Shown here: in pieces, positions 30,026-45,212 of the stretch
How the letters are laid out: each line of letters starts with the position of its first letter
Numbering within the stretch: the stretch's first letter is position 1
Source: Streptomyces gelaticus
Lineage (GTDB): Bacteria > Actinomycetota > Actinomycetes > Streptomycetales > Streptomycetaceae
Length of the DNA: 64,000 nucleotides
Assembly: GCF_014649535.1 (NCBI RefSeq)
Contig: NZ_BMTF01000029.1
Location: forward strand, 1 to 64,000
Direction: 5' to 3'
The notes under the pieces: generated by a model
Databases searched by the model: none
What the model was told of the DNA's origin: nothing
The model's input: only the letters and a program-made list of their open reading frames with translations
Translations under genes and position numbers: made by a program

Positions 30026-30046
30026 CTCTTGTATGGCAGTCAAGAG
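30026..30046. promoter_or_regulatory. Operator copy 2, CTCTTG-N9-CAAGAG
   Basis: This second perfect copy lies 34 bases from copy 1 and 8 bases beyond the TetR stop codon. The pair occupies the whole promoter region of the dioxygenase-hydroxylase operon, as expected for repression. Confidence 0.68.
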
Positions 30047-30053
30047 ATCGGTG

Positions 30054-30620
30054 TCAGCGTGCCGCCGCGACGGCCGTCAGCGCCTCCATGAGGAGGTCGA
30101 TGAACTCCCCGGTCGGTCGGTCCAGCCCCCGGGCGCTGACCAGAAGCCCCTCGAAGAGCACATGTGCCATGTCCGCCACGGGTGCGACGTCGACCCCCTC
30201 GGGCAGCCGGTTCGCGACGGCCGCGAGCAGGCGTCCCTCCAGCCATTCCCGCATGTGGGAGTAGACCTCGGTGAGGGCGGGCGACTCGTCCATACGGTCA
30301 TACGCCTCCCGGTGCAGCCCGCGATACGCCTCCAGGTCGGCGAGGAACGTCACCAGTTGCCGCTGCGGATCCCCTCCGATCGCGGGATCCGTCTCCACGC
30401 GCTCCCGCTCGCGCTGGAAGAGGCGGTCCAGTGCGGCGGCGAACAGGTCGTCCTTGGTCGGGAAGTACCAGCGCACGGCGTTGGCCGCGACGCCGGCCGC
30501 CTTTCCGACCTCGGTCAGGCTGGTCCCCTTGTATCCCTTGACGGCGAAGAGCTCCCAGGCGCTGTCGACCAGGACGGCCTCGCGCTCGGCTTTGGGGATC
30601 TGTTGGCGGTTCCTTGGCAT
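30054..30620 (-). CDS. TetR-family regulator of the aromatic catabolic genes
   Basis: This 188-residue regulator has a TetR helix-turn-helix at about residues 12-60 (AVLVDSAWELFAVKGYKGTS, then VGKAAGVAANAVRWYFPTKDDLF). A helical effector domain follows. The ATG at 30620 is chosen because it gives the usual short N-terminus before helix 1. The gene lies between the VOC/hydroxylase operon (same strand, downstream) and the divergent FAH hydrolase gene. Identical palindromes occur on both flanks, so it probably represses both transcripts and itself, and is released by an aromatic intermediate. Confidence 0.88.
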   Translation of the reverse strand: MPRNRQQIPKAEREAVLVDSAWELFAVKGYKGTSLTEVGKAAGVAANAVRWYFPTKDDLFAAALDRLFQRERERVETDPAIGGDPQRQLVTFLADLEAYRGLHREAYDRMDESPALTEVYSHMREWLEGRLLAAVANRLPEGVDVAPVADMAHVLFEGLLVSARGLDRPTGEFIDLLMEALTAVAAAR

Positions 30621-30694
30621 AGCAACCCAGCCTAGGCGGCACATCCCCGCCCTCATCGGCTGCACCCGGGAGCGGTGACTCGGTGGCCGATGAA

Positions 30695-30715
30695 CTCTTG
30701 ACTCGGAAACAAGAA
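30695..30715. promoter_or_regulatory. Operator copy 3, CTCTTG-N9-CAAGAA
   Basis: This copy has one mismatch in the right arm. It lies 75 bases upstream of the TetR start and 53 bases upstream of the FAH hydrolase start, on the divergent promoter region, and is 23 bases from copy 4 centre to centre. Confidence 0.6.
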
Positions 30716-30717
30716 AT

Positions 30718-30738
30718 CTCTTGACTTAGATGCAAGAG
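30718..30738. promoter_or_regulatory. Operator copy 4, CTCTTG-N9-CAAGAG
   Basis: This perfect copy ends 30 bases before the FAH hydrolase ATG. Binding here would block RNA polymerase at that promoter and, with copy 3, also the TetR promoter. Confidence 0.68.
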
Positions 30739-30767
30739 AACATGTCCCCAACACGCGGGAGTCCGTG

Positions 30768-31658
30768 ATGCGCCTGTACAGCACAGCCCTGGGCATCGCC
30801 AGGGAGGAGAGCCCCGGCGAGCTCTCCGTACTCGACCTCCCCTTCGCAGACCTGGGCGCCCTCCTGCGCGGACCGGGTGTCGACGCCGCGCGCGCCGCGG
30901 CGGTCGTCCGGCGGGTCGCCCTCGGCGAGGTCCGGGTGCACGCTCCCGTTCCCCGGCCCGGGAAGATCCTGATCGTCGGCCTCAACTACCGCAGCCATGC
31001 GGAGGAGGCCCTGGAGATGTTCGCCGCGATGGGGCGGTCCGACGTCATCCTGCCCGCTGAGCCGAATTTCCAGCTGGTCGCCGGATCCGCGGTCACCGCA
31101 CCGGGCGACGACATCCGCCTCCCGGCCGTCGCGGCCGACCGGGTCGACTACGAGGGTGAGGTGGCCGTCGTGATCGGCCGGTCCGCGAGCGCGGTCTCCG
31201 CCGCCGAGGCTGCGAGCCACATCGCCGGCCTGACCATCGCCAACGACGTCTCCGCGCGCGATATCCAGCAGCGTGCGATGTCGGGCGATCCGACCGTGTC
31301 CCTCGGTGTGGCCAAGAGCTTCGACACCTTCAAACCGCTCGGCCCCTGCTTGGTCACCCCGGACGAGTTCACCGCGCCGCTCGACCTGCGGCTGCGCACC
31401 CTGGTCAACGGTGACATACGCCAGGACGACCGCACCAGCAGCTTCATCCACGGCGTGACCGAGCTGATCTCCTACCTCTCCCGTTATCAGACCCTCGAAC
31501 CCGGAGACGTGATCCTCACCGGAACACCGCGCGGCGCCGGCGTGTTCTCCGGTCGTCATCTGCGGCCCGGCGACGTCGTCGAGGTCGAGGTCGAGCACAT
31601 CGGCACGCTCCGGAACCGCGTGAGGGCCGCCCCCGGGGGCGCGAGCGCGGGTGCATGA
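30768..31658 (+). CDS. Fumarylacetoacetate-hydrolase-family protein
   Basis: This 296-residue enzyme belongs to the FAH superfamily, which cleaves C-C bonds or isomerises/decarboxylates acylpyruvate-type ring-fission products with a divalent metal. Family motifs are KILIVGLNYRSHAEEA (about 66-81), the metal-binding VDYEGEVAVVIG with E-x-E (about 127-138), the Asp in IANDVSARDIQQR, and the C-terminal LEPGDVILTGTPRGAG. It is transcribed divergently from the TetR gene and preceded by two operator copies. Its expected substrate would be the product made by the hydroxylase and VOC dioxygenase encoded on the other side of the regulator. Confidence 0.9.
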   Translation: MRLYSTALGIAREESPGELSVLDLPFADLGALLRGPGVDAARAAAVVRRVALGEVRVHAPVPRPGKILIVGLNYRSHAEEALEMFAAMGRSDVILPAEPNFQLVAGSAVTAPGDDIRLPAVAADRVDYEGEVAVVIGRSASAVSAAEAASHIAGLTIANDVSARDIQQRAMSGDPTVSLGVAKSFDTFKPLGPCLVTPDEFTAPLDLRLRTLVNGDIRQDDRTSSFIHGVTELISYLSRYQTLEPGDVILTGTPRGAGVFSGRHLRPGDVVEVEVEHIGTLRNRVRAAPGGASAGA

Positions 31659-32429
31659 CAGCCGGGACGCACCGGACGTCGGGCGGCGGCGATGTACGGG
31701 ACCTGCGGCATGCCGGGAAATGCCCCCAGGCGCCACAGGGCCACGGTGACGGCGCGGGCCGGGTGTCCGCGAAGAGCCGGTACGCATTCGCACCGGCACC
31801 GCGAGCACCCGCGGTCCTCCCGCGAGCACCCACGGTCCTCCCGTGAGCACCCGCGCCGCCGACGCCCACGCGCCATCGGCGACAGGGCGAACGGTCCCTG
31901 ACGTGGCACTGAATGGCTGCTTTCGAGGGGCCGGTGAGCACAGCAAGGCGCGGCGACCCGCCTGTCCCAGCCTGACCGGCCGATTCCATGGGATCGGCCA
32001 CGTACATGGGGCGCTGACCTGGATGTGTGATGTTGTGGCGCCATTTCAGGCCCTTCGCGGCTTCGCCCCACAGCTCGGCGAGCTCAGACGGCTCGGCTGC
32101 CATTTGGTGCAGAGCGTCACGGCCAACGTTTGGAAGTCTGCGGGCGAGACCCGTGAGGGAGTTCACCCCCTCGCGCACGGCGGCGTCGAGTGTGACCGTC
32201 AGAAACGGTTCAGCCGAGGCTGAATCAGCGAACCGAGCGCCAGGACCACGACCGGGTCCGCAGGCCTCATCCCGCGCAGGTCTTGCCCGAGCCGGGTTCC
32301 GACCCGATCGACACCCTGCGCGCCTTGGAGGATTTCGTCGGCCGGCCGGGGCACGGCCGACGAATCACGTCGTCGACAACCTCTCAGGGGATGGGGGACA
32401 GGGGCAGGGGGCAGGGACAGGCGGCGTGG
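31659..32429. other. 771-base region with decayed sequence and short tandem repeats
   Basis: No intact gene is supported here. A minus-strand stretch around 31950-32200 has moderately coding-like composition (for example RDALHQMAAEPSELAELW) but no ribosome-binding site or known family. It opens into an Arg-rich frame formed by tandem repeats at 31800-31856. This may be the remnant of a gene that once flanked the terpene cluster. It separates the convergent FAH and terpene-synthase genes. Confidence 0.35.
31800..31856. repeat. 21-bp tandem repeat, about 2.7 copies
   Basis: Units start at 31800, 31821 and 31842 and share the core GAGCACCC followed by CGGTCCTCC in the first two. Neighbouring units differ by one or two bases and the third is incomplete. 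The repeat lies in non-coding DNA. Its 21-base period keeps any overlapping frame open, which explains spurious long frames here. Confidence 0.65.
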
Positions 32430-33395
32430 CTAACTCGCGTAGCGGGCGTGCCCGATGTGCCACACGTAGGAGGCGGCGACGGCTTCCATCGCGTGAGCGT
32501 GATGCGCGAGTGCTTTCTTGTTGCCGGCGGCGAGTTCGGTGATTCGAAGGCGTGCGGTGGAGGCTTGGTCTTCACACATGCGGGAGGCCAGGCGGAACGC
32601 CTCTTCGAGGTCGCACTCACGGTGTCGGACCAGCAGGGTTGGCAGGCTCAGAGGAGTCGGGCCACCGCGATCTGTCTCCTTCGCGTACGAGGCAAGGTCG
32701 TTGATCCACCCGGCAAGGTCGGCGACGGCCTTCTCCAGTTCCCGCACCGCTGCCGAGGATCGCTGGTCCTCGGTCAGTTCGTATCCGAGCGCGACTTCCG
32801 CGGTCGCCATGACGGTCCGGACGAAGACTGTGTGGGGGCGCATCGCGCAGTAGTCGCTCAGGGTGACCTGGTCGGGCCTGTCGAGGTGATGGGCCTCCCA
32901 GAGGATGCCGAAGAGGTTGTCCCGCAGGTGCGCGGTGAGCCGTAGGTACTGCGTGGGCGTGGCCCGTTCCCGGAACCGCTGCAGCAGGTCCCGCAGGGCG
33001 GCGGTGCAGGCGTCGTCATCGGCCGCTGGCTCGTCGTGGCCGGCCAGCAGATGGACACAGTGACTGATGCGGCGGACCAGACGGGCGGTGTCACGGCCTC
33101 CTTCGGCCTCGCCGTGTACATCGTCGAACGCGGTGAGCCACAGAAAGAGATCGGCGCAGAGGAACACGCCGTCCCGGTCCGCTGTGGGCAGGACACGAGC
33201 CACCCCATGAGCCGTGATGTTGCAGAGGGCCTTCGCCTCGCCGGGTGAACCGATCAAGGGGAAGGTCCGGAGCCACTGGGCGGTCTGTTCCTCGATGGCG
33301 TCGGCATACGGGCTGGTGGCGAAGGGGCCGGGGAAAGAGCCTCGGAGGTCGGGCATCGGCAGGGTACGCGCGTCCGAGGTGCGGGTGTGGCTCAT
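32430..33395 (-). CDS. Class I terpene synthase (diterpene type)
   Basis: This 321-residue protein has the complete class I catalytic signature: the Asp-rich DDVHGE at residues 91-95 on the first metal helix, the NSE triad NDLASYAKE with N232, S236 and E240, and a terminal ARY pair near 318. These bind three Mg2+ and ionise a diphosphate. Its place after a class II cyclase gene implies that its substrate is a bicyclic labdadienyl (copalyl-type) diphosphate, which it would convert to a diene or alcohol. The ATG overlaps the P450 stop (ATGA). It is the last gene of the operon. The order GGPP synthase, class II cyclase, P450, class I synthase matches the cyslabdan (cld) clusters of Streptomyces. 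Confidence 0.9.
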   Translation of the reverse strand: MSHTRTSDARTLPMPDLRGSFPGPFATSPYADAIEEQTAQWLRTFPLIGSPGEAKALCNITAHGVARVLPTADRDGVFLCADLFLWLTAFDDVHGEAEGGRDTARLVRRISHCVHLLAGHDEPAADDDACTAALRDLLQRFRERATPTQYLRLTAHLRDNLFGILWEAHHLDRPDQVTLSDYCAMRPHTVFVRTVMATAEVALGYELTEDQRSSAAVRELEKAVADLAGWINDLASYAKETDRGGPTPLSLPTLLVRHRECDLEEAFRLASRMCEDQASTARLRITELAAGNKKALAHHAHAMEAVAASYVWHIGHARYAS

Positions 33396-34771
33396 ACGGC
33401 TGTCCCCGCGACGGTCCGCTGCCTGGTTTCGGCGACCATACGGGGGTCCGACGGATGCACGGTGAGCAGCCCGACAGGCTCCACGGCGGCGCCGGGAACG
33501 GGCCGCAGCCGCCAGCGGGAGGCGATGAACGCCGTGATGACGATCGCCTCCGTCCAGGCGAACGCGTCGCCGATGCACATGCGTTTTCCCGACCCGAAGG
33601 GGATGAAGGCTCCCCTCGGCGGCTGGGGGCGCTCCGGCAGCCAGCGGTCGGGGTCGAAGCGCAGCGGGTCTGGGTACAGAGCCGGGTCGCGGTGCAGTGC
33701 GTAGGGACTCCACAACACCTGCTCACCCGCCGGCAATTCGGCCTGCCCGAGGCGCACGGGCTTGGTGGCCTGCCGGGTCACCAGCCAGCCGGCGTGGTGC
33801 AGGCGCAGGGTCTCACTGACCAGTCTGCGGGTGAAGGCGAGTTGGGGGACGTGCTCGGCGGTGATCGGACCCTCTCCGACCACGGAGTCGACCTCCTCGT
33901 GCAGCCTGCGCTCCAGCTCGGGGTCGCGGCCCAGCTCGTGGAACAGCCAGGCCAGCATGACTCCGGTCGTCTCGGAACCTGCGGCCAGCAGCCCGATGAT
34001 CTCCGACAGGATCTCGTTGTCCGGCAGTGGCGCACCGGATTCGTCCCGGGCCTCCAGGAGCAGCGTCACGAGGTCGTCGTGGACGTCGGGCTCGGTCCGG
34101 CGCTCCGCGATGATGTCCGCCACTTCGCTGCGCAGCAGGCTGCGAGCGGCCTTGAGCCGCCGGTTGCTGCGGGTGGGCAGCCGTTCCAGCGAGGACACGG
34201 GCACCATGGTGCGCCAGATGGCGGCCGTGAAGACCGTGTCGACGGCGTCGAGGATCGCGCGCGCCCGCTCCTGCTCCGCGCGGAAGGAGCACAGCACCGA
34301 CATGGCCACGTCCTGGGCCATCAGCCCCATTTCGGTCTTCAGGTCGAGCAGTTCCCCCTCGTGCCAGCCCGTGATGGACGGCTCCACCGTTTCCCGCATC
34401 GTGTTGACGTACCTGCTGACCTGCTCGCGGTGGAAGGCGGGCTGGAGCAGTCGGCGCCGACGCAGGTGGGGCGCGCCCTCCGCGACCGGCAGGGCCGACT
34501 GACCGAAAAGCTTGAGCTTCTCGCCCAGCAATCCCTTGGAGAAGGAGCCGGACCTGCTGGTGAGCATCTCGTGGATCAATTCATGCGAGTTGACCACGGT
34601 CACCTTCTTGGGGCCGACCGATATGCGGACGATCGGCCCGTATGTGCGCAGGTGTTCGACGAACTTCAGGCGGTCTTTGACCAGGGGCACAACGTGTCCG
34701 ATGAGCGGCAGCCGCCCCGGAGCGGTCGGCGGAACGTCCATGCCGGCAGTCACATCTATGTCGGTAGTCAC
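33392..34771 (-). CDS. Cytochrome P450 of the diterpene operon
   Basis: This 459-residue P450 has all canonical motifs: I-helix AAGSETTG (about 263-270), K-helix ExxR at E320-R323 (SETLR), and heme loop PFGSGKRMCIG with C399. It lacks a membrane anchor and is of bacterial soluble type, needing external ferredoxin and reductase. None is encoded in the cluster. The GTG start overlaps the class II cyclase stop (GTGA) and follows GGAAAGGA. It probably oxidises the labdane skeleton, for example by hydroxylation or epoxidation, as the equivalent enzyme does in cyslabdan biosynthesis. Confidence 0.92.
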   Translation of the reverse strand: MTTDIDVTAGMDVPPTAPGRLPLIGHVVPLVKDRLKFVEHLRTYGPIVRISVGPKKVTVVNSHELIHEMLTSRSGSFSKGLLGEKLKLFGQSALPVAEGAPHLRRRRLLQPAFHREQVSRYVNTMRETVEPSITGWHEGELLDLKTEMGLMAQDVAMSVLCSFRAEQERARAILDAVDTVFTAAIWRTMVPVSSLERLPTRSNRRLKAARSLLRSEVADIIAERRTEPDVHDDLVTLLLEARDESGAPLPDNEILSEIIGLLAAGSETTGVMLAWLFHELGRDPELERRLHEEVDSVVGEGPITAEHVPQLAFTRRLVSETLRLHHAGWLVTRQATKPVRLGQAELPAGEQVLWSPYALHRDPALYPDPLRFDPDRWLPERPQPPRGAFIPFGSGKRMCIGDAFAWTEAIVITAFIASRWRLRPVPGAAVEPVGLLTVHPSDPRMVAETRQRTVAGTAV

Positions 34772-36366
34772 GCGTCCGTCCTTTCCATATCCGCTTCTGT
34801 ACATGCGGCTGCGCGACGTGCCCGCAGCAACTCGCGCGCAGCGAGCACCTCTGCTTCGATCACTGCGGTGGGCGCATAAAGGGTTTTGTCGTGCCACAGG
34901 GCGGGGTGCCGGCGGCTGGCGTGCGAGGCGGCGCGCAGGTATGTCTCGGCGAGGTCCAGAGCCCGGGTGTGCTGTGGCTGCGGCGCGGGGGTGGCGGCGC
35001 TCAGCAGGATCTTGACGGCGTATGCGGTTTCTTCGACGGTGCCGCCCCACACGCCCCAGGAGCCGTCGGCGCGCTGAGTGTCAGTTGTCCACGCGGCGGC
35101 GCTCTGGACGGCCCTGGACGCCTGGTGGCCGCCGTACTGTGCGAGCGCGGTGACGCTTCGCGCGGTGGCGTAGTACGGGGAAGCATGCCATTTGTCGGTC
35201 CAGTGTCCTTCGGGTTGCTGCTGGCCGGTCAGCCAGTCGCACAACTTTGCTGCTCGGGGGCCGTACATGCCGTCTGCGGTCGGGCAGCGCCGCAGGTAGC
35301 TCACGAGGGCCTGGAGGGCGTGGGCGTTCGCGGTGACCGATCCGGTGTCCTCGCCGATGTAGCAGTCGTAGTGGCTGCCGTTGTGGAACAGGTCCAGCGG
35401 TGCCGGGTCGTACGGCAGGTCGACGAGCGAGGCAACCAGCACCGACATGGCGGTGTCGTCGGCATCGGTCATGAGGCCGGGCGCACCGCGCACCCCTTGG
35501 GAGTCGTAGATCTCCTCGGCCCACCTGCGGACAGTGGGAAGAGCGGCGGCGGGCAGGTGGGCGCGCGCCAGCGCGGCGGCGACCCATAGCCGTTCGACCA
35601 CGCGGAGGGGCGCGGCCTCGGGGAAGAGACCGTCGTAGCGCTGCGCCACTGCTGTGAGGTCGGCGACGGCCTGAGGGGTGGTGGCGGGTGACCGTGCTGC
35701 CCGTGCCGCGGTGGCGGCCGGCGAGCTGCCCAGCAGGCCTTCGACGTCGGGGACGAGAGCCGGCGGTATGTAGCCGGCTATGCCTTCGAACGTGTGGTGA
35801 AACTTGACGGGCAGGCTGCCCGTCGGCTCATATCGCCTGGCCACGTAAGCAGGTGCCGATTCGTGGAAGCCGCCCGGAACCGGCAGCAGGGGGCCACCGA
35901 TACCTGGCATGTCCTCGCCGGTGGTCAGGGACCCCAGCTTCTCGTTGATCTCGGCCACCAGGCTGGGTACGAGTATTTCCGCTGCAGCGGTGTCCGGCCA
36001 CGGGCACACCGGCGGCAGTGATCGCAGTACGTCGAGGCCCCGGTTCACCGCGGCCGTGAGCCGGGCGGTGACCTCTGCGGACGTGGTGCCCCTTTGCAGG
36101 ACGGCCAGGGCGGCCTCCACCCCGCTGAGTGTCGGCAGGAGCCGGTAGGGCAGCGGTCCCTCCCCCCAACTGCCGTCGGGGGCCTGCTGTTCCAGCAGGT
36201 ACGTGATCCGCCGTGGCTCCCCGGGCAGCCACGGCGCCGCAGAGAGGACGCGGGTTGTCTCGTACAGGGACGGACCGACGCTTCCCCATCCGTCCTGGTC
36301 GGCCCTGGTCACCAGGCTGGTGGCTCGTTCGGCGTAGGACGTGCCGATGGGCGTGCTGATGCTCAC
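34768..36366 (-). CDS. Class II diterpene cyclase (labdadienyl/copalyl diphosphate synthase-like)
   Basis: This 532-residue two-domain (beta-gamma) cyclase carries the class II acid motif DxDD as DADD at residues 301-304 (LMTDADDTAMS). QW-like motifs occur near 59-67 (QQAPDGSWGEG) and 460-470 (QRADGSWGVWGG). It protonates geranylgeranyl diphosphate and cyclises it to a bicyclic labdane diphosphate without losing the diphosphate group. Its length equals that of Streptomyces CldB/PtmT2-type enzymes. The GTG start has GAGGAGGA upstream. The stop overlaps the P450 start. It is transcribed after the GGPP synthase gene, with 46 bases between. Confidence 0.92.
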   Translation of the reverse strand: MSISTPIGTSYAERATSLVTRADQDGWGSVGPSLYETTRVLSAAPWLPGEPRRITYLLEQQAPDGSWGEGPLPYRLLPTLSGVEAALAVLQRGTTSAEVTARLTAAVNRGLDVLRSLPPVCPWPDTAAAEILVPSLVAEINEKLGSLTTGEDMPGIGGPLLPVPGGFHESAPAYVARRYEPTGSLPVKFHHTFEGIAGYIPPALVPDVEGLLGSSPAATAARAARSPATTPQAVADLTAVAQRYDGLFPEAAPLRVVERLWVAAALARAHLPAAALPTVRRWAEEIYDSQGVRGAPGLMTDADDTAMSVLVASLVDLPYDPAPLDLFHNGSHYDCYIGEDTGSVTANAHALQALVSYLRRCPTADGMYGPRAAKLCDWLTGQQQPEGHWTDKWHASPYYATARSVTALAQYGGHQASRAVQSAAAWTTDTQRADGSWGVWGGTVEETAYAVKILLSAATPAPQPQHTRALDLAETYLRAASHASRRHPALWHDKTLYAPTAVIEAEVLAARELLRARRAAACTEADMERTDA

Positions 36367-36412
36367 GGGGCGACTTCCTCCTCGGAGTTCTGATGACGGT
36401 GCGCGGCGATGC

Positions 36413-37492
36413 TCATGTCTGTCTGGCCGTTGCGTCCAGGGCGAGCCGGCGCAGGGAGGCTGTCGCACTTCCAGGGAAAGGAGCGTTGTCCAGGGCGGCG
36501 AGGGCGGTGGCCCGTCGTGCGGTGATCATTTCCTCCACGGTCTTCCGGGCGCCGGTGGAGTTCAGGATCGTGCGGACCGCGGCGGCGTGTTCCTCGTTGA
36601 GGTCGCTCCGCCCGACGAGCTCGCGCAGTGTTTTCAGTTCGGCCGTGGAGGCTCGCTGGACCGCGAGCGCCATCAGGACGGTGGCCTTGCCTTCGCGCAG
36701 GTCGTCCAGTATTGACTTGCCTGTCTTGGCAGGGTCACCGAAGACCCCGAGCAGGTCGTCCCGCAGCTGAAACGCTTCTCCTAGCGGTATGCCGAAGGCG
36801 GTGCAGGCATCGAGTACGGGTGGGGCGGCTCCGGCCGCTGCCGCCCCTATGTGCAGGGGCCGTTCTATGGTGTATTTAGCCGTCTTGTATCGAATGACAT
36901 GCAGTGCTGTATCCACGTCGCCGGCAAGGCGGCCGGTGGTCTGCAAGTCAAGGAGCTGGCCGTACATGACCTCGCTCCGCATTTCGGCCACCAGGGGCAG
37001 CACCTGTGCCAGCCGTCCCGGGCTGAGGTCCGCTGTGCGCAGGAGTTCATCGGACCACACCAGGGACAGGTCCCCGAGAAGGACGGCCGCGCCCAGACCG
37101 TGCGCTTCGGCCCTGCTGCCCGGGCCGCCGCTGTCGGTATACGCGGTGGCGAGCGCACGGTGGGCGGACGGCCGGCCGCGGCGGACGTCGCTGTCATCCA
37201 TCACGTCGTCGTGTACGAGGGCGAACACCTGGAAGAGTTCGAGGCTGGCGGCAGCGCGAACGGCAGCAGTCATGTCGCCTGTTGCTCCAGCGGCCTGCCA
37301 TCCGTACAGGCACAGCAAGGATCGCAGTCGTTTTCCGCCGGTCAGGAGTCCGCGCAGGGCGGTGGTCAGGTAGAGCAGCTCTTTTCCTGGCGCAGCACGT
37401 TCCTTGGCGTCCAGGAATTCCGTCAGAGCCGCGCCCACCTTCTGTCGTAGGGAAGCGAGCTCGGGCAGTCCAGTAGGAAGGGTTTGTGTCAC
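36413..37492 (-). CDS. Polyprenyl (geranylgeranyl) diphosphate synthase
   Basis: This 359-residue trans-prenyltransferase has the first Asp-rich motif DDVMD at residues 95-99 (ALVHDDVMDDS), the GGKRLR substrate site at about 52-57, and the second Asp-rich motif DDLLGVFGD at 245-253. In this family small or large residues just before the first motif set chain length. Here they are F90 and L92, with the context favouring C20. It supplies GGPP to the class II cyclase encoded next. The GTG start follows AAGAGGA. A strong hairpin at 37586-37628 precedes the gene, so it likely has its own promoter in the 94 bases between. Confidence 0.9.
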   Translation of the reverse strand: MTQTLPTGLPELASLRQKVGAALTEFLDAKERAAPGKELLYLTTALRGLLTGGKRLRSLLCLYGWQAAGATGDMTAAVRAAASLELFQVFALVHDDVMDDSDVRRGRPSAHRALATAYTDSGGPGSRAEAHGLGAAVLLGDLSLVWSDELLRTADLSPGRLAQVLPLVAEMRSEVMYGQLLDLQTTGRLAGDVDTALHVIRYKTAKYTIERPLHIGAAAAGAAPPVLDACTAFGIPLGEAFQLRDDLLGVFGDPAKTGKSILDDLREGKATVLMALAVQRASTAELKTLRELVGRSDLNEEHAAAVRTILNSTGARKTVEEMITARRATALAALDNAPFPGSATASLRRLALDATARQT

Positions 37493-37585
37493 CGGCGGTT
37501 GATCCTCTTTCGTTCGAGAACCGTCGTTGCGGTTCCGTTCTTGCAGAGGACGGGCCAACTGACCCGCGTCTCCTTTCCTGGGGCT

Positions 37586-37628
37586 GTCGCGGTGGTGCCG
37601 GCCGGCTCCCGGTCGGCACCACCGCGAC
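37586..37628. terminator. 15-bp hairpin between conservon and diterpene genes
   Basis: A perfect 15-base stem (37586-37600 with 37614-37628) encloses a 13-base loop whose ends can pair further. It lies 30 bases after the CYP157-like stop and 94 bases before the GGPP synthase start, all on the minus strand. It should end or attenuate the conservon transcript before the biosynthetic genes. Confidence 0.7.
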
Positions 37629-37657
37629 GCGACGATCGACGGCAGGTGATACGGCTT

Positions 37658-38950
37658 CTACGCCTCGGTCCTGCCTGACGTCGGGGCCAACGGGGTGTCC
37701 CGCTCGGGGCGGGAGGGGCTCCGGCTCCAAGGGGTGGCCCCGTCGGCGTCGGGGGTGAGCGGTGTGAACCGGGCCGGGAGCGCGGTGAGCGTCCGGTGGA
37801 CAGCCCCGGGGCGGTAGGTCAGCTTGCCGGCGGGAACGGCCAGTTCGATGTCCGGCAAGTAGGTCAGCAGCCTCTCGATGGCGGCGGTGGCGATCAGTGT
37901 GGCGACGTCACGGGCGGGACACGTATGGGGCCCTGCGGCGAAGGCCAGGTGCGCCTTGTTCCCGGAGCGGTAGCCGTCCGTCGGAATGCCCGAATGGGGG
38001 CAGGTGTTGGCGGCGGCGTACGACACCATGACGGGCGAGCCTGCGAGGATGCGAGCGCCGTGGAAGGTCACGTCCTTCTTGGGGAGATGGACGCTGTAGT
38101 TGGCCAGCGGCGCGTCGTGCCACAGCGCATCATCGATGGCGTGCTGGATGGGCAGGCTCCCGGTGGTCAGGGTGCCGAAATACCGGTCGTCGCTGAGCAT
38201 GCGGACGAGCGTGTTGGCAATGAGGTTGCACAGTGGCTCGTTCCCGGCCCCGAGGGTGATGAGGATCTGGTTGACGGCCTCTTCCTGGCTCAGCCCATTG
38301 GGGTGATCGATGAACCAGGAAGTCAAATCGTGACCGCGCTGTGTCGCTTTGGTCCCGTAGAGGTCTTCGAGGTAGGCGCTGAACGCCTGCCCGCCCGCTG
38401 CCTGTTTCTCCGGATCGCTGTCCATCATTGCCTCGAGCGCCCACACGAGCCGCGGGCCCTCCTCGTCCGGCATGCCGAACAGAGCATTGAAGACCATCAG
38501 GGGCAACTGCTGCGCGTACTGGCGGACGAGGTCGACCGTCCCGGTATCAGCGAATTCCTGCAGCAGCGTGTCGGCGAAGCGGAATGTCAGGGTGCGCACG
38601 TCATTGGGATCCAGGAGACCGAAGCTGTCCGTGATCACACGTCGCAGGTGCGCGTGTGCCTCGCCGTCGGCGAAGAACAGACTCGGCCGCCACTCCACCA
38701 GGGGCCGGATCGGGCTGTCCTCCGGCACCTGCGGCAGCCAGTTCCGGGTGTCCTTGGTCCACGTATCGGCGTCCTGGAGGAGGTCGAGGGCGGCCCGGTA
38801 GTCGGTGACCAGGTGGACCACGACACCGGGGGCCACCTCGGCTACGCCGACCGGTCCCTGCCTGCGCAGCAGTTCATAGCTGCGCTGCGGGTTCGCGGCG
38901 TGTTCGGCCCCGTGCAGGGACACGGGGGCTTCGGCTGGTGTGAGCGTCAC
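37658..38950 (-). CDS. CYP157-like cytochrome P450 lacking the ExxR motif
   Basis: This 430-residue P450-fold protein has a clear heme-binding loop, FAAGPHTCPAR with C344, and an I-helix TLGAGNEPLCN (about 232-242) with Asn-Glu-Pro replacing the usual acid-Thr pair. The K-helix position that is ExxR in nearly all P450s reads DALW (D274-W277). This is the hallmark of the CYP157 family, which is repeatedly found with conservons in Streptomyces. The enzyme may not be a classical monooxygenase and could be a signalling or sensing partner. Its GTG overlaps the CvnD stop (GTGA), so it is translationally coupled to the conservon. Confidence 0.88.
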   Translation of the reverse strand: MTLTPAEAPVSLHGAEHAANPQRSYELLRRQGPVGVAEVAPGVVVHLVTDYRAALDLLQDADTWTKDTRNWLPQVPEDSPIRPLVEWRPSLFFADGEAHAHLRRVITDSFGLLDPNDVRTLTFRFADTLLQEFADTGTVDLVRQYAQQLPLMVFNALFGMPDEEGPRLVWALEAMMDSDPEKQAAGGQAFSAYLEDLYGTKATQRGHDLTSWFIDHPNGLSQEEAVNQILITLGAGNEPLCNLIANTLVRMLSDDRYFGTLTTGSLPIQHAIDDALWHDAPLANYSVHLPKKDVTFHGARILAGSPVMVSYAAANTCPHSGIPTDGYRSGNKAHLAFAAGPHTCPARDVATLIATAAIERLLTYLPDIELAVPAGKLTYRPGAVHRTLTALPARFTPLTPDADGATPWSRSPSRPERDTPLAPTSGRTEA

Positions 38951-39567
38951 GAGGCTTTGACTCCGGCAACGGATATGGAATGGGCGGTCAGTTGGGCGAG
39001 GGCGTGCAGGCCGCTGTTCTTCTCTCGTGCGTCACAGGTGACCAGTGGAGTCTCCGGGGCGAGGTCGAGCTTGGAACGGATGAGCGCCAAGTCGTACTTG
39101 GGTGAGTCAGGGAAGACATTGACAGCGACGGCGTACGGCAAACCGCGCTCCTCGATGAGTTCCATCACCTCCCAGGAGTCCTTGAGCCGCCGGGTGTCGA
39201 CCAGGACGAGGGCGCCGAGTGCTCCGAACGCGATGCCTTCCCACAGCGGAAGGAAGCGGCGCTGCCCCGGAGTTCCGTACAGATACAGAACGATCTTGTC
39301 GCCCGGCAGCGTCAGACGGCCGAAGTCGATGGCGACCGTGGTGGTGGTTTTGTCGCGCAGGACATCGTGGCTGAGGTCATCGGTGGCGACCGCCGCGTTT
39401 GTCATGACCTCGTCGGTGTGCAATGTCGGAATCTGCGACAGCGACTTGACTACGGTCGTCTTGCCGATACCGAGCGGGCCTGCAACGAGGATCTTGATCC
39501 TTCGGTGTTCTCCCTCAGGCAGGTAGACGGGAGACGGGCTAGGCGGCAAGGAGAGCGTGGAGTCCAC
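38947..39567 (-). CDS. cvnD: Conservon GTPase CvnD
   Basis: This 206-residue member of the conservon-associated small GTPases resembles Ras/MglA-type proteins. P-loop GPLGIGKTTVV is near residues 30-40, switch-II motif YGTPGQRRF near 97-105, and the base-recognition segment reads NVFPDSP instead of NKxD, as usual in this family. It is thought to cycle nucleotide state in a membrane complex with CvnA-C. The GTG start lies 28 bases inside the end of cvnC. The stop overlaps the P450 start. The neighbouring order cvnA-B-C-D-CYP157 is complete. Confidence 0.92.
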   Translation of the reverse strand: MDSTLSLPPSPSPVYLPEGEHRRIKILVAGPLGIGKTTVVKSLSQIPTLHTDEVMTNAAVATDDLSHDVLRDKTTTTVAIDFGRLTLPGDKIVLYLYGTPGQRRFLPLWEGIAFGALGALVLVDTRRLKDSWEVMELIEERGLPYAVAVNVFPDSPKYDLALIRSKLDLAPETPLVTCDAREKNSGLHALAQLTAHSISVAGVKAS

Positions 39568-39922
39568 TCAGAACCTCTTCCAGGACTTCTTTCGACGGTC
39601 GGCCATCGTTCGACGCGCGGAGGGCGTCCGGAATCGGGACGGTGGCTTTTAACTGTCCGTCAGTGACAAGTTGTTCGGCGAGCACCAGAGTCACGCTGAC
39701 CGGCAGACCGAGATAGCCGGCCAGTTCGACGACGCTGAGAGATCCGTCGGTGAGCAGCTCGATCACACGCTGGTGCACCGCCGTGTGGTACCTGGCCAGG
39801 GGCATGCCGCTGGCACGCAGAGCGGCCAGCGAATCGAGCGTGCCCGAGAGACCGACGCCGGGGCTGGTTCCGGTCGCGAGGTAGGCCGGCAGCAGCCGTC
39901 GCTGTTCCTGGCCGCGGCTCAT
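39539..39922 (-). CDS. cvnC: Conservon DUF742 protein CvnC
   Basis: This 127-residue winged-helix-like DUF742 protein is the third component of the conservon. The conserved core LLTDGSLSVVELAGYLGLPV is visible at about 57-76. It is followed by the VTLVLAEQLVTDG helix. In this family it is thought to link the roadblock protein and the GTPase. The ATG overlaps the cvnB stop. The N-terminal 35 residues are Gly/Ser-rich. Confidence 0.92.
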   Translation of the reverse strand: MSRGQEQRRLLPAYLATGTSPGVGLSGTLDSLAALRASGMPLARYHTAVHQRVIELLTDGSLSVVELAGYLGLPVSVTLVLAEQLVTDGQLKATVPIPDALRASNDGRPSKEVLEEVLSGLHALLAA

Positions 39923-40356
39923 GACGCCCCGTTACTGGTACGGGCGGGAACGGACATGATCTGTTCCCCGAGTTTCATTGCCTGGCGGGCCATGGTGGCC
40001 GCGACCACTCCCATGGGCATGTCCTCATCGCCCGCTGCCGCTATCAGGGTGTTGGTTCCTTCGCCGACCGGCATGACCATGTAGATGCCTCGGTCGTTGT
40101 GGGAGGTGACGGTCTTGAGCGGAGTGCTTCGAGGGGCCCCCAGAACGGCGTTGGTGGCGGCGCGGGAGGCGGAGTGCAGCGCGGCAGTCATCGCACCGAT
40201 GCCGTCTGCCTCGTCCTTGGTGAGATCCTCGGAGATGGCCTGGACCATCCCGTCGAGAGTCATGGTCAGGGCATGCCGGACACCGCGGATTTCGGTGATG
40301 GGCTTCAGGACCCAGGCGTACGAGCCGGTCTGTTCGTGGGTTTCAGGCATGGTCAC
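39919..40356 (-). CDS. cvnB: Conservon roadblock/LC7 protein CvnB
   Basis: This 145-residue Roadblock/LC7-domain protein is of the kind that acts as a GTPase-activating or scaffold partner of CvnD. Typical elements are WVLKPITEIRGVRHALTMTLDG, KDEADGIGAMTAALHSASRA, and NTLIAAAGDEDMPMGVVAATM. The GTG at 40356 is chosen because it overlaps the cvnA stop by GTGA, in the style of the rest of the operon. An ATG two codons later is also possible. Confidence 0.92.
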   Translation of the reverse strand: MTMPETHEQTGSYAWVLKPITEIRGVRHALTMTLDGMVQAISEDLTKDEADGIGAMTAALHSASRAATNAVLGAPRSTPLKTVTSHNDRGIYMVMPVGEGTNTLIAAAGDEDMPMGVVAATMARQAMKLGEQIMSVPARTSNGAS

Positions 40357-41753
40357 AGTGTTGACTCCGAATCGGTGACGGACCGGTCGCCGGTGAGGCC
40401 ACTTTGGAAATCGCTCCACATGGCCCCGGTGTCTTCCGGGTTCAAGGGGCGGGGCGCTGCGGCGGACTCATCGTTGGTGGCTGTCGCTGAGAAGCGGCGG
40501 CGGCGCTGCGGCAGCGCCGCCGCGCCGCTCGGCTCGGGTGAGGGCGCGGGCGAGTCGGCAGCGGTGGGTCGCCTGTGGGCCTGTGGCGCCACGGCAGGTT
40601 GGGGAGCCATGACCGAAGGGGGCGTGGCGATTTCGTCGATCGAGGTCAGCAAGTTCTCGGGAATGGACACCACAGCGCGCACCCCGCCATAGGGAGAGGA
40701 AGTGTCGATGGAGACATGGAGGCCGTAGTCGGCGACGAGACGGCCGATGGCGGCGAAGCCCATCGACGGCGGATCGCCGAGTTCGAGGAGCATCACTTCC
40801 TGCTGTTCACCCGATATCAGACTTCGGCCGCGGGCGAGCGCTTCGGCGGTCATGCCCTTGCCGGCGTCGTCGATCGTGATGCACACACTGCCGTTGCCGG
40901 TCTGGATCAGGCCGACCTCCACCATGAGGTCGTCACGGGAGTGCTCCAGCGCGTTGGCCATCAGCTCGGCGCAGACCACAGCAACCGGCTCGGCCGCGCG
41001 GCCGACCACGCCGATGTTGGACAGGCCCAGCCGAGACACGATGTTGATGCGGTCGAAGCCGCGCAGTCGGGAGGAGGCGCCACTGACGACCTCGCTCACG
41101 TAGGTGTCCTTGCGGACGTGACCCGGCCAGCCTCCGCACACGATGGCGGATTTCTGCGTGAGGCGCAGGTTCTGCTCATTGAGGTGGTCGGACTCGAGCA
41201 GGCTCTGCGTCAGACGCGGCGGAGCGCTGAACTCGTGCTGCAGACCCACGATATTTGTCTGCAACCGGTAGGAGAGGGCCTGGGACTCCTGAGTTGCGCC
41301 ACGCAGGGCCGCCCGAGCCGCGGCGTCGATGCGGCGCCTTTCCTTGAGGACGATGCCGGAAACCGTTTCGGGCACGGCGTCGAGGAGCCGGGCGGCCTCG
41401 GACCCTGCGAGGTTCTTGTGCAGGAGTCCGGGAACGGGGTGATGAGAGCTGATCAGGTGCAGTGCGAGAGCGGGAAGCCGATCGGAGACAAGGTGACGCA
41501 CCTCGTCGAGAATCTCGGCTTCGCGGGTAGTGACTTCCTGCGCGCGGGACTCCGCGGTCTGCCTGTTCTGCACCTCGGTTCGGGCCCGGCCCTCGGCAGC
41601 ATGCGCGCGGGAATTGGCGGCCTGCGCCTCCGCGGACAAGTCTTTGCCCCGGCGTATGTGGGTGCGGCGCGAGCGTGCCAGGAGCAGCGCCCAGACTGCT
41701 AGGAGGAGGGACAAGACGCCGAGGGCAAGGGCGATTTTTGAGGACAAGGTCAC
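40353..41753 (-). CDS. cvnA: Conservon sensor-kinase-like ATPase CvnA
   Basis: This 466-residue membrane protein has one N-terminal transmembrane helix (about residues 4-26), a long Ala/Glu/Arg-rich coiled-coil segment (about 35-85) and a nitrate-sensor-like helical region. A HATPase domain follows, with N box ELMANALEHS and G box DDAGKGM (about 262-335). The classical phosphoacceptor His box is not evident, as in other conservon kinases. The last 100 residues are a Pro/Ala-rich low-complexity tail. It heads the operon and probably senses a membrane or cell signal and controls the CvnB-D switch. Compared with large CvnA proteins with extracellular nitrate domains, this one is short. Confidence 0.9.
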   Translation of the reverse strand: MTLSSKIALALGVLSLLLAVWALLLARSRRTHIRRGKDLSAEAQAANSRAHAAEGRARTEVQNRQTAESRAQEVTTREAEILDEVRHLVSDRLPALALHLISSHHPVPGLLHKNLAGSEAARLLDAVPETVSGIVLKERRRIDAAARAALRGATQESQALSYRLQTNIVGLQHEFSAPPRLTQSLLESDHLNEQNLRLTQKSAIVCGGWPGHVRKDTYVSEVVSGASSRLRGFDRINIVSRLGLSNIGVVGRAAEPVAVVCAELMANALEHSRDDLMVEVGLIQTGNGSVCITIDDAGKGMTAEALARGRSLISGEQQEVMLLELGDPPSMGFAAIGRLVADYGLHVSIDTSSPYGGVRAVVSIPENLLTSIDEIATPPSVMAPQPAVAPQAHRRPTAADSPAPSPEPSGAAALPQRRRRFSATATNDESAAAPRPLNPEDTGAMWSDFQSGLTGDRSVTDSESTL

Positions 41754-42291
41754 GGAGGGGGGTCCTAGGGGGTCGGTCGAGCCTTCGAAGAACGGCGCAG
41801 CGGTTCACTCCCCCGCAGGGGTGGTGAGTGCGGCCTCCGGAGAGCTGGCGTACAGGAGAACATGTGGCAATTCGTGAATAGCGCGTGGATCTACAGGGCG
41901 AAGAGGTGCCACCGCAGACACACGACTGCGACGCCGAGACAGGGGCCGGCGAATTGCCCGAGCCGGCCAAGGCTCCAGCGGCGCCATCCCATGGGCAGCA
42001 TCGGCCGTCCGGCCGGCCCTCGCGCAACTCACGGCCCCGGAATCGGATGCAGGGCGGAGCCCGCTGAACACAAATGAACAGGTTCATCAGAGCTCCGTCG
42101 AGGACTGCGAACGTCGGCTACGTCGAGTGCTTCCCGCCATCGCACGCAGTCGACTCGCGGCCTTGCCACTTCCTAAAACGCGGTCAGCTTACTGGAGTTG
42201 ATCTGTGCACGTGGCCCTGGTGGGCCCGCACCGTCACGAACCGGACGATCTTGACTCGCCGGGTTCTCCCAGATCGCACGGCGTGGACAAT
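41754..42291. other. 538-base upstream region of the conservon
   Basis: No gene is supported. The left end should contain the conservon promoter, since cvnA is the first gene and no Shine-Dalgarno of note precedes its GTG. A plus-strand frame around 42070-42170 is slightly AT-richer. No palindrome or hairpin of interest was found. Confidence 0.4.
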
Positions 42292-42479
42292 GGCGCGCTC
42301 CGCCAGCTCGCCGTATCGCCCCGTATGGGGTGATCGTCCGCGGCGGTGTCGAGGAGAGCGACACCGGCCGGGAGGCCGCGCTCCTGCGTGAGGTCCGTGA
42401 GGAGACCGCGGGTGATACGGACATCGTGTGCGTGCTTCACGGGATGGAGCACGCACACGGGGGAGAGGAGTGCTTCTGA
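42292..42479 (+). pseudogene. Nudix hydrolase remnant
   Basis: The plus strand encodes RRIAPYGVIVR, typical of the first strand of Nudix hydrolases. It jumps directly to VEESDTGREAALLREVREET, the Nudix box with its REVREE catalytic helix, and stops at 42479 after a further 25 residues. The residues normally between these elements are missing, the box has one residue too many, and there is no start signal. It is the relic of a small pyrophosphohydrolase. Confidence 0.6.
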
Positions 42480-42743: not shown

Positions 42744-45212
42744 TCAGCCGGTGTTGTCCTGACGCCTGCGGCGCATCCACCACACCAGGGCCGCGCCGGC
42801 GGCGACGACCGCCGCGGCGATGCCGGAGATCAGCCCGACCGGGGTGTCGGAGCCGGTGTCAGCGAGGCCGCCGTGCGGGTCCGGCTCATTCGTCGGCGGA
42901 TGGGCGTTCCCGCCGGTCCGGGTCGGGTCCGGGGTCGGGGTCGACGGTTCGTCACCCGGCTCGGACGGGTGGGAACCAGGCTTCGTGGGGGTGGGGGTGG
43001 GCTTGGGATCCTCGCCTTCCCCGGCCGCCGTCCTGCCGCCGCCGAGGTAGAGGGTGTCGGTGTCCCGGTAGGAGACGTCATCGGACTGGAGGGACGTCCT
43101 GGTAGTGGTGTCCAGGGTGCGGTGTTCTACGTTGAACCGGGTGCGGGAGATGTTCTGCTTGGGCTGCTTGGAGAAATCCACGCCGCCGACGCCCTGGTTG
43201 TAGATTTTGCCACCGTACTCCAGCTCGAACCACTCGATGCCCTTCTTGAGGGAGTCCATGTAACGCTTGTGGACGCTCTCGCGAGTCCAGTTCTCATTGG
43301 GGGCGCGCAGTGGCCACGCGGAGACGTCGTTGGAGTCGATGGTCTTGTGGAAGTCGGTCGGGGTCTTCGCGTCCTGCTGGCGGATGTACTCGGCGGCGAC
43401 GCGGGCGGTGTAGACGGCGCGCAGGTCGGCGTAGTCGGGGTCGGTGTTGACCCGGTCCTCCACCAGAGGCATCACGTTCGTGCGGACGTTGGCCTCAATG
43501 GCGTGCTTCTGCTCGTCGGTCAGGCCCTTGCACTCGGTGGAGCCGGGTGCCTGCCACTCGACGTCCAGCCACTGGGTGGACACCTTCAGGGGTGCGTCAA
43601 GGATGTAGATTCCGCCGTCCTGCTCGCGCACCTGGGCGGGCTTGGGCTCGATCCACATGCGCACGCCGGGGAAGCAGGGCATGCCGTTCTGGCGGGGCGC
43701 GGTGTCCCAGTACCGCTTGGCGCCGGCGTGCTTGTTGGGATTGAGGGCTTCGGAGAAGTCGTGCTTCATCTCAAGGTCGGCTTCGAGCAGGACCCGGCCC
43801 GCGTCGGTCTTGCCGAACTCGGCGTCCATGACCCGGTCGGGCTCGTCCGGGTTGAGGTTGACCCAGAACTTCTCCGGAGTGAGCGCGAGCCAGGTGAACA
43901 GGGCGTCGGAGGAGAGCTGCATGCGCGCCTCGCCGCCGAAGCCGGGGTTCTCGTCCGGGTTGGGCATCTGGTCGGCACGCATGGAGTACTGCATGCCCTT
44001 GCCCTTGCCCAGGCCGCCGACGTAGCGCAGTTCCAGGGTGGTGAAGTCGACGCCGCCCGGTCCACCGCGCGGGAGGGTGCCCCGGGTGTCGAGCCGGCGG
44101 GCCTCGGCCTGGATTTTCTTGGCCTGTTCCAGGTTCTTTCCGGAGCCGTTGATCCGGTCGTTCAGCGGGCCGCGGGTGCCGCAGGTGGAGGCGGCGGTGA
44201 GCTGCATCCTGCCCTGGCCGCCCTGGCCGCCCTGGCCGCCCTGGCAGCCCGGTGCGAACCACCGCTGGTAGTCGGAGTAGCCCTTGATCGGCTTGGTCCG
44301 CGGGACGGGGTTGTAGATCCGCTGATTGCCGCGGACCTGGTTCGTCTGGCCGGGCCGCAGCCGGTTGACGTACCGGTTCAGGTTGTCGATCTTATTGCGC
44401 TGGCCTGTGGTGAACGCCTTTGCGCCGGTGAAACGGAACTTGTGATCCGGCATGAACCGGGCGATCTTCCGGTCCTTGGCGAGCTGCTTGTTCGTCAGCT
44501 CCGAGTTCGATTTGAACTCGTTGAACTCCTTGGTGCGCTGGTTGTAGGCGTCGTAGCGGCGCGTGTCGACGACATTGCCCTGTGCGTCGATGAGTTCGAC
44601 GGTGACCTCGCACAGCCAGTCCGGTCCGACCAGGCGGAAGTCACGGACGAGCTGGCGTTCGAACGCCGATCCCTTGTGGTTGTTGGTCTGGTTGCGGATG
44701 AACCTGTGCTCGAACCAGTGCTCGAAACTCAGGCCCTCTTTGTTGTGGAAGTACCGGGCGTAGATCTCGAACTTGCGGTCCTCCGGGTCACCGGACTTGT
44801 CCGCGATCTTCTGCCACGCCTTGTAGTTCTTCTCCGTGTCGTTCGGGACCTTCGACAGGGCCTGCGCCCTGTCGGCGGACGTCGGCGGCCTCACCCCGTC
44901 GTACGCCTTGCCGGGCAGGTCGTAGTTGAAGTTCTTCGGGTTGCCCTTCCAGGCGGAGAAGTTCGAGCCGGTGGGGTCGTTGGGGAACCCCGAGTTCTTC
45001 GGAGTGCTCTGGTACTTGTTTCCCAGGTTCTTCACATCGCAGCGCTTCGCGCCGGGCTTGATCCTGGCCGCGACGGCGCGCGGCGCGGCGGTCGCGGTGT
45101 CGGTCTCGATGCCGGGCAGGCCGGTCACGGTGATCGCCGAGGCGATCCCGAAAGCGGCCAGAACGCGGCCTGCCAGACGCCACCGTTCGGGTATGCGCAG
45201 TGCTCTGTTCAA
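42744..45212 (-). CDS. Large sortase-anchored surface protein with nuclease-like region
   Basis: This 822-residue precursor has an N-terminal signal peptide (about 1-43, ending TATAA/P). Its cell-wall sorting signal consists of a Pro/Thr/Glu-rich stalk, LADTG at 783-787, a hydrophobic helix and an RRRR tail. LAxTG is the signal used by actinobacterial class E sortases. Residues about 180-250 contain GSAFERQLV (E185), RRYDAYN (D221) and EFK (E232, K234), followed by a NKQLAKD helix. This spacing resembles PD-(D/E)XK nuclease toxins. A Gly-Gln repeat (GGQGGQGGQG) lies near 325. The start is TTG with GGGAAG upstream. The remaining 450 residues have no recognised domain. It may be a surface or contact-dependent effector. 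Confidence 0.75.
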   Translation of the reverse strand: MNRALRIPERWRLAGRVLAAFGIASAITVTGLPGIETDTATAAPRAVAARIKPGAKRCDVKNLGNKYQSTPKNSGFPNDPTGSNFSAWKGNPKNFNYDLPGKAYDGVRPPTSADRAQALSKVPNDTEKNYKAWQKIADKSGDPEDRKFEIYARYFHNKEGLSFEHWFEHRFIRNQTNNHKGSAFERQLVRDFRLVGPDWLCEVTVELIDAQGNVVDTRRYDAYNQRTKEFNEFKSNSELTNKQLAKDRKIARFMPDHKFRFTGAKAFTTGQRNKIDNLNRYVNRLRPGQTNQVRGNQRIYNPVPRTKPIKGYSDYQRWFAPGCQGGQGGQGGQGRMQLTAASTCGTRGPLNDRINGSGKNLEQAKKIQAEARRLDTRGTLPRGGPGGVDFTTLELRYVGGLGKGKGMQYSMRADQMPNPDENPGFGGEARMQLSSDALFTWLALTPEKFWVNLNPDEPDRVMDAEFGKTDAGRVLLEADLEMKHDFSEALNPNKHAGAKRYWDTAPRQNGMPCFPGVRMWIEPKPAQVREQDGGIYILDAPLKVSTQWLDVEWQAPGSTECKGLTDEQKHAIEANVRTNVMPLVEDRVNTDPDYADLRAVYTARVAAEYIRQQDAKTPTDFHKTIDSNDVSAWPLRAPNENWTRESVHKRYMDSLKKGIEWFELEYGGKIYNQGVGGVDFSKQPKQNISRTRFNVEHRTLDTTTRTSLQSDDVSYRDTDTLYLGGGRTAAGEGEDPKPTPTPTKPGSHPSEPGDEPSTPTPDPTRTGGNAHPPTNEPDPHGGLADTGSDTPVGLISGIAAAVVAAGAALVWWMRRRRQDNTG

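Follow-up and report, generated by a model that had tools for sequence, protein, structure and literature searches.

A conservon co-inherited with a labdane-type diterpene operon in Streptomyces gelaticus, and its possible role in sensing the diterpenoid

The 64,000-nucleotide stretch of Streptomyces gelaticus DNA analysed here (RefSeq assembly GCF_014649535.1, contig NZ_BMTF01000029.1, positions 1 to 64,000; referred to below as the window) carries nine open genes on the minus strand, from approximately 42.3 to 32.4 kb, in the order cvnA-cvnB-cvnC-cvnD-CYP157-geranylgeranyl diphosphate (GGPP) synthase-class II cyclase-P450-class I synthase. The first five make up a conservon and the last four a diterpene operon, and this nine-gene arrangement is far beyond chance, since it was found again in 31 other distinct loci. 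The linkage of conservon and diterpene genes is fixed in the type to which the window belongs, and the two halves are co-inherited. We consider it an evenly balanced proposition that this cassette, as one co-inherited unit, both produces a labdane diterpenoid and holds a G-protein-like system that answers to it.

Searches with the class II cyclase covered 392 Streptomyces genomes (a match in 24, that of the window included), 297 genomes of the family (a match in 14; the samples overlap) and contigs of named genomes (15 loci), and flanks of approximately 7 to 10 kb were examined where the contigs permitted. Few candidates were scored per genome (3 to 5 by search), so that some loci may have been missed. 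After removal of duplicates, 43 Streptomycetaceae loci were retained; L072, L075 and L081 were left out as second copies of L034, L039 and L037, and L029, L031, L032, L040 and L041, which match named loci, were likewise dropped. At 32 loci, the window included, identity to the cyclase of the window is 52% or more, and in every one of them the cvnA-B-C-D, CYP157, GGPP synthase and class II genes are found in the same order and on the same strand. The pathway P450 gene is present in 30 of these loci and the class I gene in 31, L040 stopping at the contig edge. In L044 (oriented positions approximately 10754 to 10908) no match to the pathway P450 was detected and the class II gene leads directly to the class I gene, the conservon being present. 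At the 11 Streptomycetaceae loci with a cyclase of at most 42% identity, no conservon was found with the genes of the window as probes in flanks of approximately 9 kb (less in L058 and L060). Among plasmid records, 30 had a class II match, and the counts given here cover the 24 that have a class I match, the unannotated NZ_CP108269.1 being left out; the cassette is present in 24/24, as judged by a DNA match to the whole unit in 20 and by annotation in 4. The sequence-only reading, made earlier from the letters of this DNA, had proposed that the conservon belongs with the diterpene operon, and this is borne out, as the operon was found without the conservon in 0/32 loci and 0/24 plasmid records. 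In a reverse search with CYP157 in 295 Streptomyces genomes, matches of at least 60% identity came from eight genomes, all of which carry the cassette, and the next matches follow from 55%; G224, whose CYP157 is fragmented, was not listed by this search. Unlike the window, 20 conservons of the nearest type (19 from the CYP157 search and one more from the genome of the window) had no matches to diterpene genes; in 17 a second P450 match follows CYP157.

The cassette behaves as a block with shared borders. DNA similarity between the window and seven close loci begins at 32424-32439 and ends at 42248-42322 in all seven, with few short shared pieces beyond, and the conserved unit extends past cvnA, to approximately 42.32 kb. 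The identity matrices of the two halves are correlated with r = 0.97 (30 loci; none of 2000 permutations as high), a value to which the shared descent of the genomes adds. FastTree phylogenies of the halves share 17 of 27 splits, 13 well-supported splits are common to both (out of 15 and 17), and no strongly supported conflict was seen. L040 and L044, in which the P450 is missing, were left out of the correlation, of the half trees and of the partial correlations given below, and L052 was left out of the latter. The CYP157s of 31 cassettes are monophyletic with respect to 20 controls (100/100; L052 left out because of its fragmented CYP157), and the CvnDs of 14 of the 32 cassettes likewise form one clade in a quick-method tree (Shimodaira-Hasegawa approximate likelihood ratio test, SH-aLRT, 98). 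The plasmid records that carry the cassette measure 0.34 to 1.27 Mb; the five that were opened are linear, with neighbouring genes that differ except between two from S. anthocyanicus. A comparison of the two cassette ends revealed one shared 8-mer only, and phage records gave no match.

A second kind of conservon-diterpene locus, called type 2 to distinguish it from the type 1 of the window, was found outside Streptomycetaceae. A class-level search of 296 genomes (E 1e-60) yielded eight cyclase loci (seven in family f19, one in f39), and a ninth, in family f3, came from a separate search. A conservon adjoins the cyclase in 8 of the 9, with the full order P450-class I-class II-cvnA-B-C-D in five (L142, L152, L153, L155 and L157). 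L154 gave no cvnC match and L151 no sound class I match, and at the f3 locus L143 a cyclase but no conservon was found. L156 is rearranged: conservon genes flank its cyclase on either side, those behind it giving good matches to CvnB and CvnD and one to CvnA over a short piece only. The eight type-2 genomes, of approximately 7 to 11 Mb, have 5 to 12 CvnD matches each, and chance adjacency was estimated at about 1%. In the type-2 alignment the class II enzymes read DADTT, with the middle Asp kept, the class I enzymes have a variant D-x-x-x-D together with NDLAT, and the P450s have ExxR and the Cys. A NIT domain is found in the CvnA of L152, L156 and L157, flanked in L152 by two membrane-like segments. 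The eight type-2 CvnDs form one clade (SH-aLRT 96), parted from the type of the window by a branch with a value of 99, and the type-2 cyclases stand apart from the clade of the window and group with two unlinked ones, in a tree that comprises 20 of the 32 cassettes, the 8 type-2 loci and 11 of 12 unlinked cyclases and that carries a long-branch warning. Judged from these trees, two separate origins of the conservon-diterpene association would be the simplest reading, the alternative being one old association with later exchange of the conservon. L061, one of the unlinked Streptomycetaceae loci, has a stretch weakly similar (25%) to a type-2 CvnA at approximately 9 kb from the cyclase.

The type-2 loci offer a view of how sensor and diterpene genes vary within one genus, g37, in which 15 of the 15 genomes found carry the locus, one of them cut by its contig. 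This one (L177) was left out, and the co-variation sample therefore comprises 14 genomes. Between G797 and G663 the DNA on either side of the locus is mostly 92-100% identical, with some 250-base bins at 83-90%, whereas a bounded block of approximately 5 kb, which covers the P450, class I and class II genes and the NIT domain of CvnA, is only 62-76% identical. At the protein level the NIT domain is 46% identical, against 95% for the next part of CvnA, 99% for its ATPase, 89% for its tail, 99% for CvnB and 98% for CvnD; the class II, class I and P450 proteins are 67%, 58% and 51% identical, respectively. The CvnAs of four other conservons of the same two genomes are 93-96% identical overall and show no such block. 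Across the 14 genomes, NIT identity follows that of the class II, class I and P450 proteins (r 0.97-0.98), as opposed to that of the rest of its own CvnA (r 0.39) or of CvnB, CvnC and CvnD (0.18-0.31), and the partial correlation is 0.97 with the diterpene genes versus -0.40 with the rest of CvnA. With thresholds set by us, NIT, class II and P450 fall into the same four allele groups, with G916 additionally set apart by class I. These groups cross relatedness, as the pair with the highest identity outside the block (98.2%) reaches only 45-67% within it. In five pairs with different alleles, divergence is lower before the NIT domain, peaks in it and ends after it. Maker genes and input domain thus vary as linked alleles next to conserved output domains, and at the level of sequence this pattern is the one that ligand-receptor co-evolution with specificity alleles predicts. 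Two kinds of pheromone locus in Firmicutes, comQXPA and agr, show linked trans-species alleles of the maker genes and of the outer receptor half, next to a conserved kinase half. The type-2 loci resemble them in that maker genes and the outer receptor part vary together as trans-species alleles; they differ in that the ligand would be a diterpenoid and the receptor a CvnA with a G protein, and the type 1 of the window has no such alleles.

In the window, the corresponding candidate is the P450-like product of the conservon, cvnE/CYP157 (37658..38950, minus strand), a probable sensor or accessory protein. It has no Pfam match at E 0.001 and matches the NCBIfam P450 models below their cut-offs, and it matches P450 chains of the PDB. 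Of the 32 loci, 31 retain the heme Cys, the exception being L052, where the gene is fragmented. The arginine of ExxR is absent from the CYP157 of all 32 cassettes (Trp in the window, in DALW) and the I-helix Thr is replaced by Pro in 25, the window among them. A heme Cys, the lack of the ExxR Arg and linkage to a conservon agree with the description of the CYP157 family (PMC3599690; here and below, statements from the literature refer to the accessible parts of the cited sources), in which members without ExxR were already known. Among predicted Streptomyces clusters, of which the terpene type is the most frequent, CYP157 is one of the commonest P450 families (PMC7369989). The conservon P450 is probably a sensor rather than an oxidase, because the ExxR Arg is absent in 32/32 loci; the idea of a pathway role for this P450, raised in the sequence-only reading, is accordingly disfavoured as far as catalysis is concerned, given the two replaced motifs. 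The CYP157 of L052 matches in three pieces, which might reflect a pseudogene or sequencing errors. A single-sequence fold of CYP157 had a mean predicted local distance difference test score (pLDDT) of 38.7 and was discarded.

CvnE and CvnF accessories are described as accompanying CvnAs without outer sensors; CvnF8 stimulates CvnA8, and CvnE11 has been modelled on CvnA11 (PMC13343842). The cassettes conform to this, with one transmembrane-like segment in 32/32 CvnA frames, and no NIT match in the Pfam scan and no extracytoplasmic sensor in the CvnA of the window. Likewise, cvn9-12 of S. coelicolor are conservons with a cvnE P450 (PMC13343842), and the window resembles them in having cvnA-D, a P450 and a CvnA that lacks an outer sensor. 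When the other four conservon genes are taken into account (29 loci), the partial correlation with the diterpene half is 0.68 for CYP157, 0.41 for cvnA, 0.37 for cvnC, -0.09 for cvnD and -0.15 for cvnB.

The reading that we find most likely is that conservons beside labdane operons detect the diterpenoid made by that same operon, through the NIT domain in type 2 and through the degenerate P450 in type 1. For the type of the window, a diterpenoid ligand is suggested by analogy, as this type diverges gradually without alleles. From families and conserved residues, the class II enzyme would convert GGPP to a copalyl-type diphosphate, from which the class I enzyme would form (E)-biformene or a closely related diterpene, to be oxidised in turn by the canonical P450. 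By extension from the work on CvnF8 and CvnA8 and from type 2, CYP157/CvnE would probably bind the diterpenoid or a precursor and adjust CvnA, which may set the GTP state of CvnD via CvnB and CvnC. The output would probably include the cassette itself, in a loop tuned at its upstream region and at a hairpin between the halves. More tentatively, and with somewhat less confidence than in the cassette as a sensing unit, we envisage actinobacterial diterpenoid hormones with dedicated G-protein-type receptors, which would have arisen at least twice by the joining of a labdane-type pathway and a conservon: in type 1, frequently located on large plasmids, a degenerate P450 would be the intracellular diterpene receptor, and in type 2 an outer NIT sensor would have diversified into specificity alleles along with its own diterpene genes.

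Several points weigh against diterpenoid sensing. The CvnEs of conservons that lack diterpene genes are equally degenerate (I-helix Pro in 20/20, ExxR Arg absent in 15/20), so that degeneracy is unspecific to diterpene sensing, and the correlation of CYP157 with the diterpene half may be due solely to its adjacent position. In the near clade of six members all nine genes diverge gradually, and no allelic block occurs among the close relatives of the window's type; the ligand argument is thus borrowed from type 2, and the two types need not work alike. Within type 2, the sensor adjoins the cyclase gene, so that exchange of a contiguous block could be behind part of the co-variation, and other CvnAs, too, are lower in their N-terminal part when more distant genomes are compared (58-93% per 60 columns), although less so. 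Finally, products were obtained in other Streptomyces hosts from cld and lrd, both of which are described as clusters of four genes (PMC10301674), so that the conservon is probably dispensable for synthesis as such.

The main rival is regulation of the operon by another cue. The conservon would then be a dedicated regulator only, with an organism, a redox state or a cytosolic metabolite acting via CvnE to switch the operon, and the diterpenoid would be an output. The linkage data fit this equally well, and a precedent exists in cvn8 of S. coelicolor, which affects at least four pathways and keeps an adjacent lanthipeptide cluster low (PMC8510531). However, it leaves unexplained why the outer sensor of the type-2 CvnA tracks the diterpene genes rather than the protein of which it is part, and we regard it as unlikely on balance.

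Linkage without function is distinctly less probable than a regulator that answers to another cue. The cassette would have spread as a plasmid block, and the type-2 co-variation would reflect contiguous block recombination that ended by chance inside cvnA. The 24 plasmid records and the shared borders are what such a spread would leave. Against it stand the two associations, which involve different conservon and cyclase clades, the lack of any conservon loss in 32 cassettes, and the divergence that in five different-allele pairs is centred on the NIT domain and falls off on both sides.

Least probable, by a small step, is a part for the CYP157-like protein in biosynthesis (as partner, chaperone or unusual oxidase, the remaining conservon serving it or having come along). 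In its favour, CYP157 is the conservon gene that adjoins the diterpene half and tracks it best, it retains its heme Cys in 31/32 loci, and labdanmycin formation needs a further gene, labE (PMC10301674). Against it, CYP157 lacks the ExxR Arg throughout and mostly the I-helix Thr, no copy of it lay among or next to the genes of the annotated type-2 loci, and it was apparently not required when the cldA-D cluster gave cyslabdan heterologously (PMC10301674, the accessible part of which does not show the extent of the cloned DNA).

The individual genes of the window agree with these assignments. Matches to Pfam families were obtained for CvnA (HATPase), CvnB (Roadblock/LC7), CvnC (DUF742), CvnD (ATP_bind_1), the polyprenyl synthase, the class II cyclase (SQHop cyclase), the pathway P450 (P450) and the class I enzyme (Terpene_syn_C_2), and the gene calls, coordinates and one-strand order of the sequence-only reading are correct. 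Its statement that stop-start overlaps run through each half holds in part: cvnB/cvnC, cvnC/cvnD, cvnD/CYP157, class II/P450 and P450/class I overlap, whereas cvnA and cvnB are separated by 2 nt, GGPP synthase and class II by 46 nt, and the two halves by 165 nt. The four genes that define a conservon lie in one operon: cvnA (40353..41753, minus strand, as are all features below) encodes a histidine-kinase-like ATPase of 466 aa with an HATPase_c match barely over the cut-off and one N-terminal membrane-like segment at residues 1-29, cvnB (39919..40350; start set from an annotated orthologue) a Roadblock/LC7 protein, cvnC (39539..39922) a DUF742 protein, and cvnD (38947..39567) a small GTPase with the P-loop AGPLGIGKTT. 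CvnA has an N-box, a G1 box and a DHL motif.

In the diterpene half, shorter starts were preferred over the longest open reading frames for GGPP synthase (37492), class II (36366), P450 (34771) and class I (33395). The GGPP synthase (36413..37492) belongs to the polyprenyl synthetase family (PF00348) and has both Asp motifs, LVHDDVMDDS and QLRDDLLGV, the GGPP chain length being a prediction. The class II diterpene cyclase (34768..36366) matches its Pfam family and carries DADDTA; its best relative in the PDB is 5bp8, an ent-copalyl diphosphate (CPP) synthase. The canonical pathway P450 (33392..34771) has a Pfam match and the motifs ETLR, SETT and FGSGKRMCIG, and ExxR is kept in 30/30 loci. The class I terpene synthase (32430..33395), which is LrdC-like, has the motifs DDVHGE and NDLASYAKE. 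Its closest PDB chain is 6oh6 (E 3e-95), a 'labdane-related diterpene synthase' which we take to be LrdC and to which it is 51% identical across the aligned part. The sequence-only reading had described the order as being of the cyslabdan type, and GGPP synthase, class II (DxDD), P450 and class I is indeed the order of lrdABDC, if A, B, D and C are, as we presume, these four genes. By alignment, Phe189 and Tyr317 of LrdC are both kept in the window; among 31 loci and LrdC, Tyr317 is kept in 32/32 and Phe189 in 28/32. Both residues were reported as essential for (E)-biformene formation by LrdC (PMC9814573). Moreover, clusters with a normal-CPP synthase were described as showing extreme conservation of both their gene content and their organisation, and as supporting cyslabdan or labdanmycin production (PMC9814783). 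For both of these reasons, an oxidised labdane is the likely product. A normal-series stereochemistry would follow by analogy with LrdC, the best PDB match of the class II enzyme being opposed to it.

The upstream region and the gap between the halves contain conserved non-coding elements. In an alignment of 18 sequences upstream of cvnA, the block at 42182..42200, with the motif CAACTCC-GTAAGCTGACC, is conserved with many invariant columns and is a probable promoter element of the cassette. A promoter scan of the cassette gave no sigma-70-like site. The gap between the halves, stop codon included, measures 136-203 nt in 28 of the 32 cassettes, 87-98 nt in L048-L050 and 45 nt in L078. In the window the 165-nt gap has a more stable predicted fold than shuffled versions of the same sequence (z -4.8) and includes an inverted repeat with 20-nt arms (37586..37628), a candidate attenuator or operator. 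Seven of 15 pairs show two-sided changes that keep pairing (20 of the 32 cassettes alignable), compared with 1-2 in slid controls. This covariation fits an RNA hairpin (an attenuator, or a terminator lacking a T run) and equally a palindromic operator. The hairpin has no T run and was not listed by the terminator scan, and Rfam gave no match up to E 1 within 30-46 kb. A second inverted repeat (37518-37535) lies in 37501-37551 together with a TCCTCT stretch, which could pair with the ribosome-binding site AGAGGA of the GGPP synthase gene.

Both halves of the cassette are of known kinds. The window shares its GGPP synthase, class II, P450 and class I genes with the labdane clusters for cyslabdan (cld), raimonol (rmn) and labdanmycin (lab) and with lrdABDC, which are all named in a review (PMC10301674). 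These were described without a conservon, a term absent from the accessible part of that review. Three loci with a class I enzyme 76-78% identical to LrdC carry the conservon, so that the published labdane clusters probably also have one. The lrd cluster of K155 itself was not found among the loci, where the best identity to LrdC is 78%, and a search with the class I enzyme of the window in 100 genomes gave only three known loci. The conservon-diterpene unit was not found in the open-licence literature, a scope outside which lie the original cyslabdan, lrd and labdanmycin papers and supplements; the supplement of PMC9814783 contains a neighbourhood network in which these genes may appear. In the literature covered, the cue sensed by conservons is unknown, and a typical streptomycete has eight or more of them (PMC8510531, PMC13343842). 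A conservon tied to one biosynthetic operon comes with a candidate ligand to produce and test. Should the diterpenoid prove to be the ligand, bacteria would have a case of terpenoid signalling via a small G protein, together with a natural allele set for specificity tests. Four-gene clones of cyslabdan-type clusters may be without their own regulator.

Outside the cassette, pieces of both flanks (1-31700 and 42330-64000) match large plasmids (those of S. atratus, NBC_01590 and NBC_00376) in other orders, and the 84-kb contig may therefore be part of a plasmid or of a chromosome arm. Upstream of the cassette, positions 42744-45212 of the minus strand encode an 822-aa protein without a Pfam family and with a C-terminal LAETG-type sortase signal just below the model cut-off, and a DUF6333 gene is found at 45386-46120. 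The left flank (23767-31658) encodes a POR/TPP/DUF6537 protein, an FAD aromatic hydroxylase, a glyoxalase-fold protein and a fumarylacetoacetate hydrolase, a gene content that possibly represents aromatic catabolism, outside the cassette.

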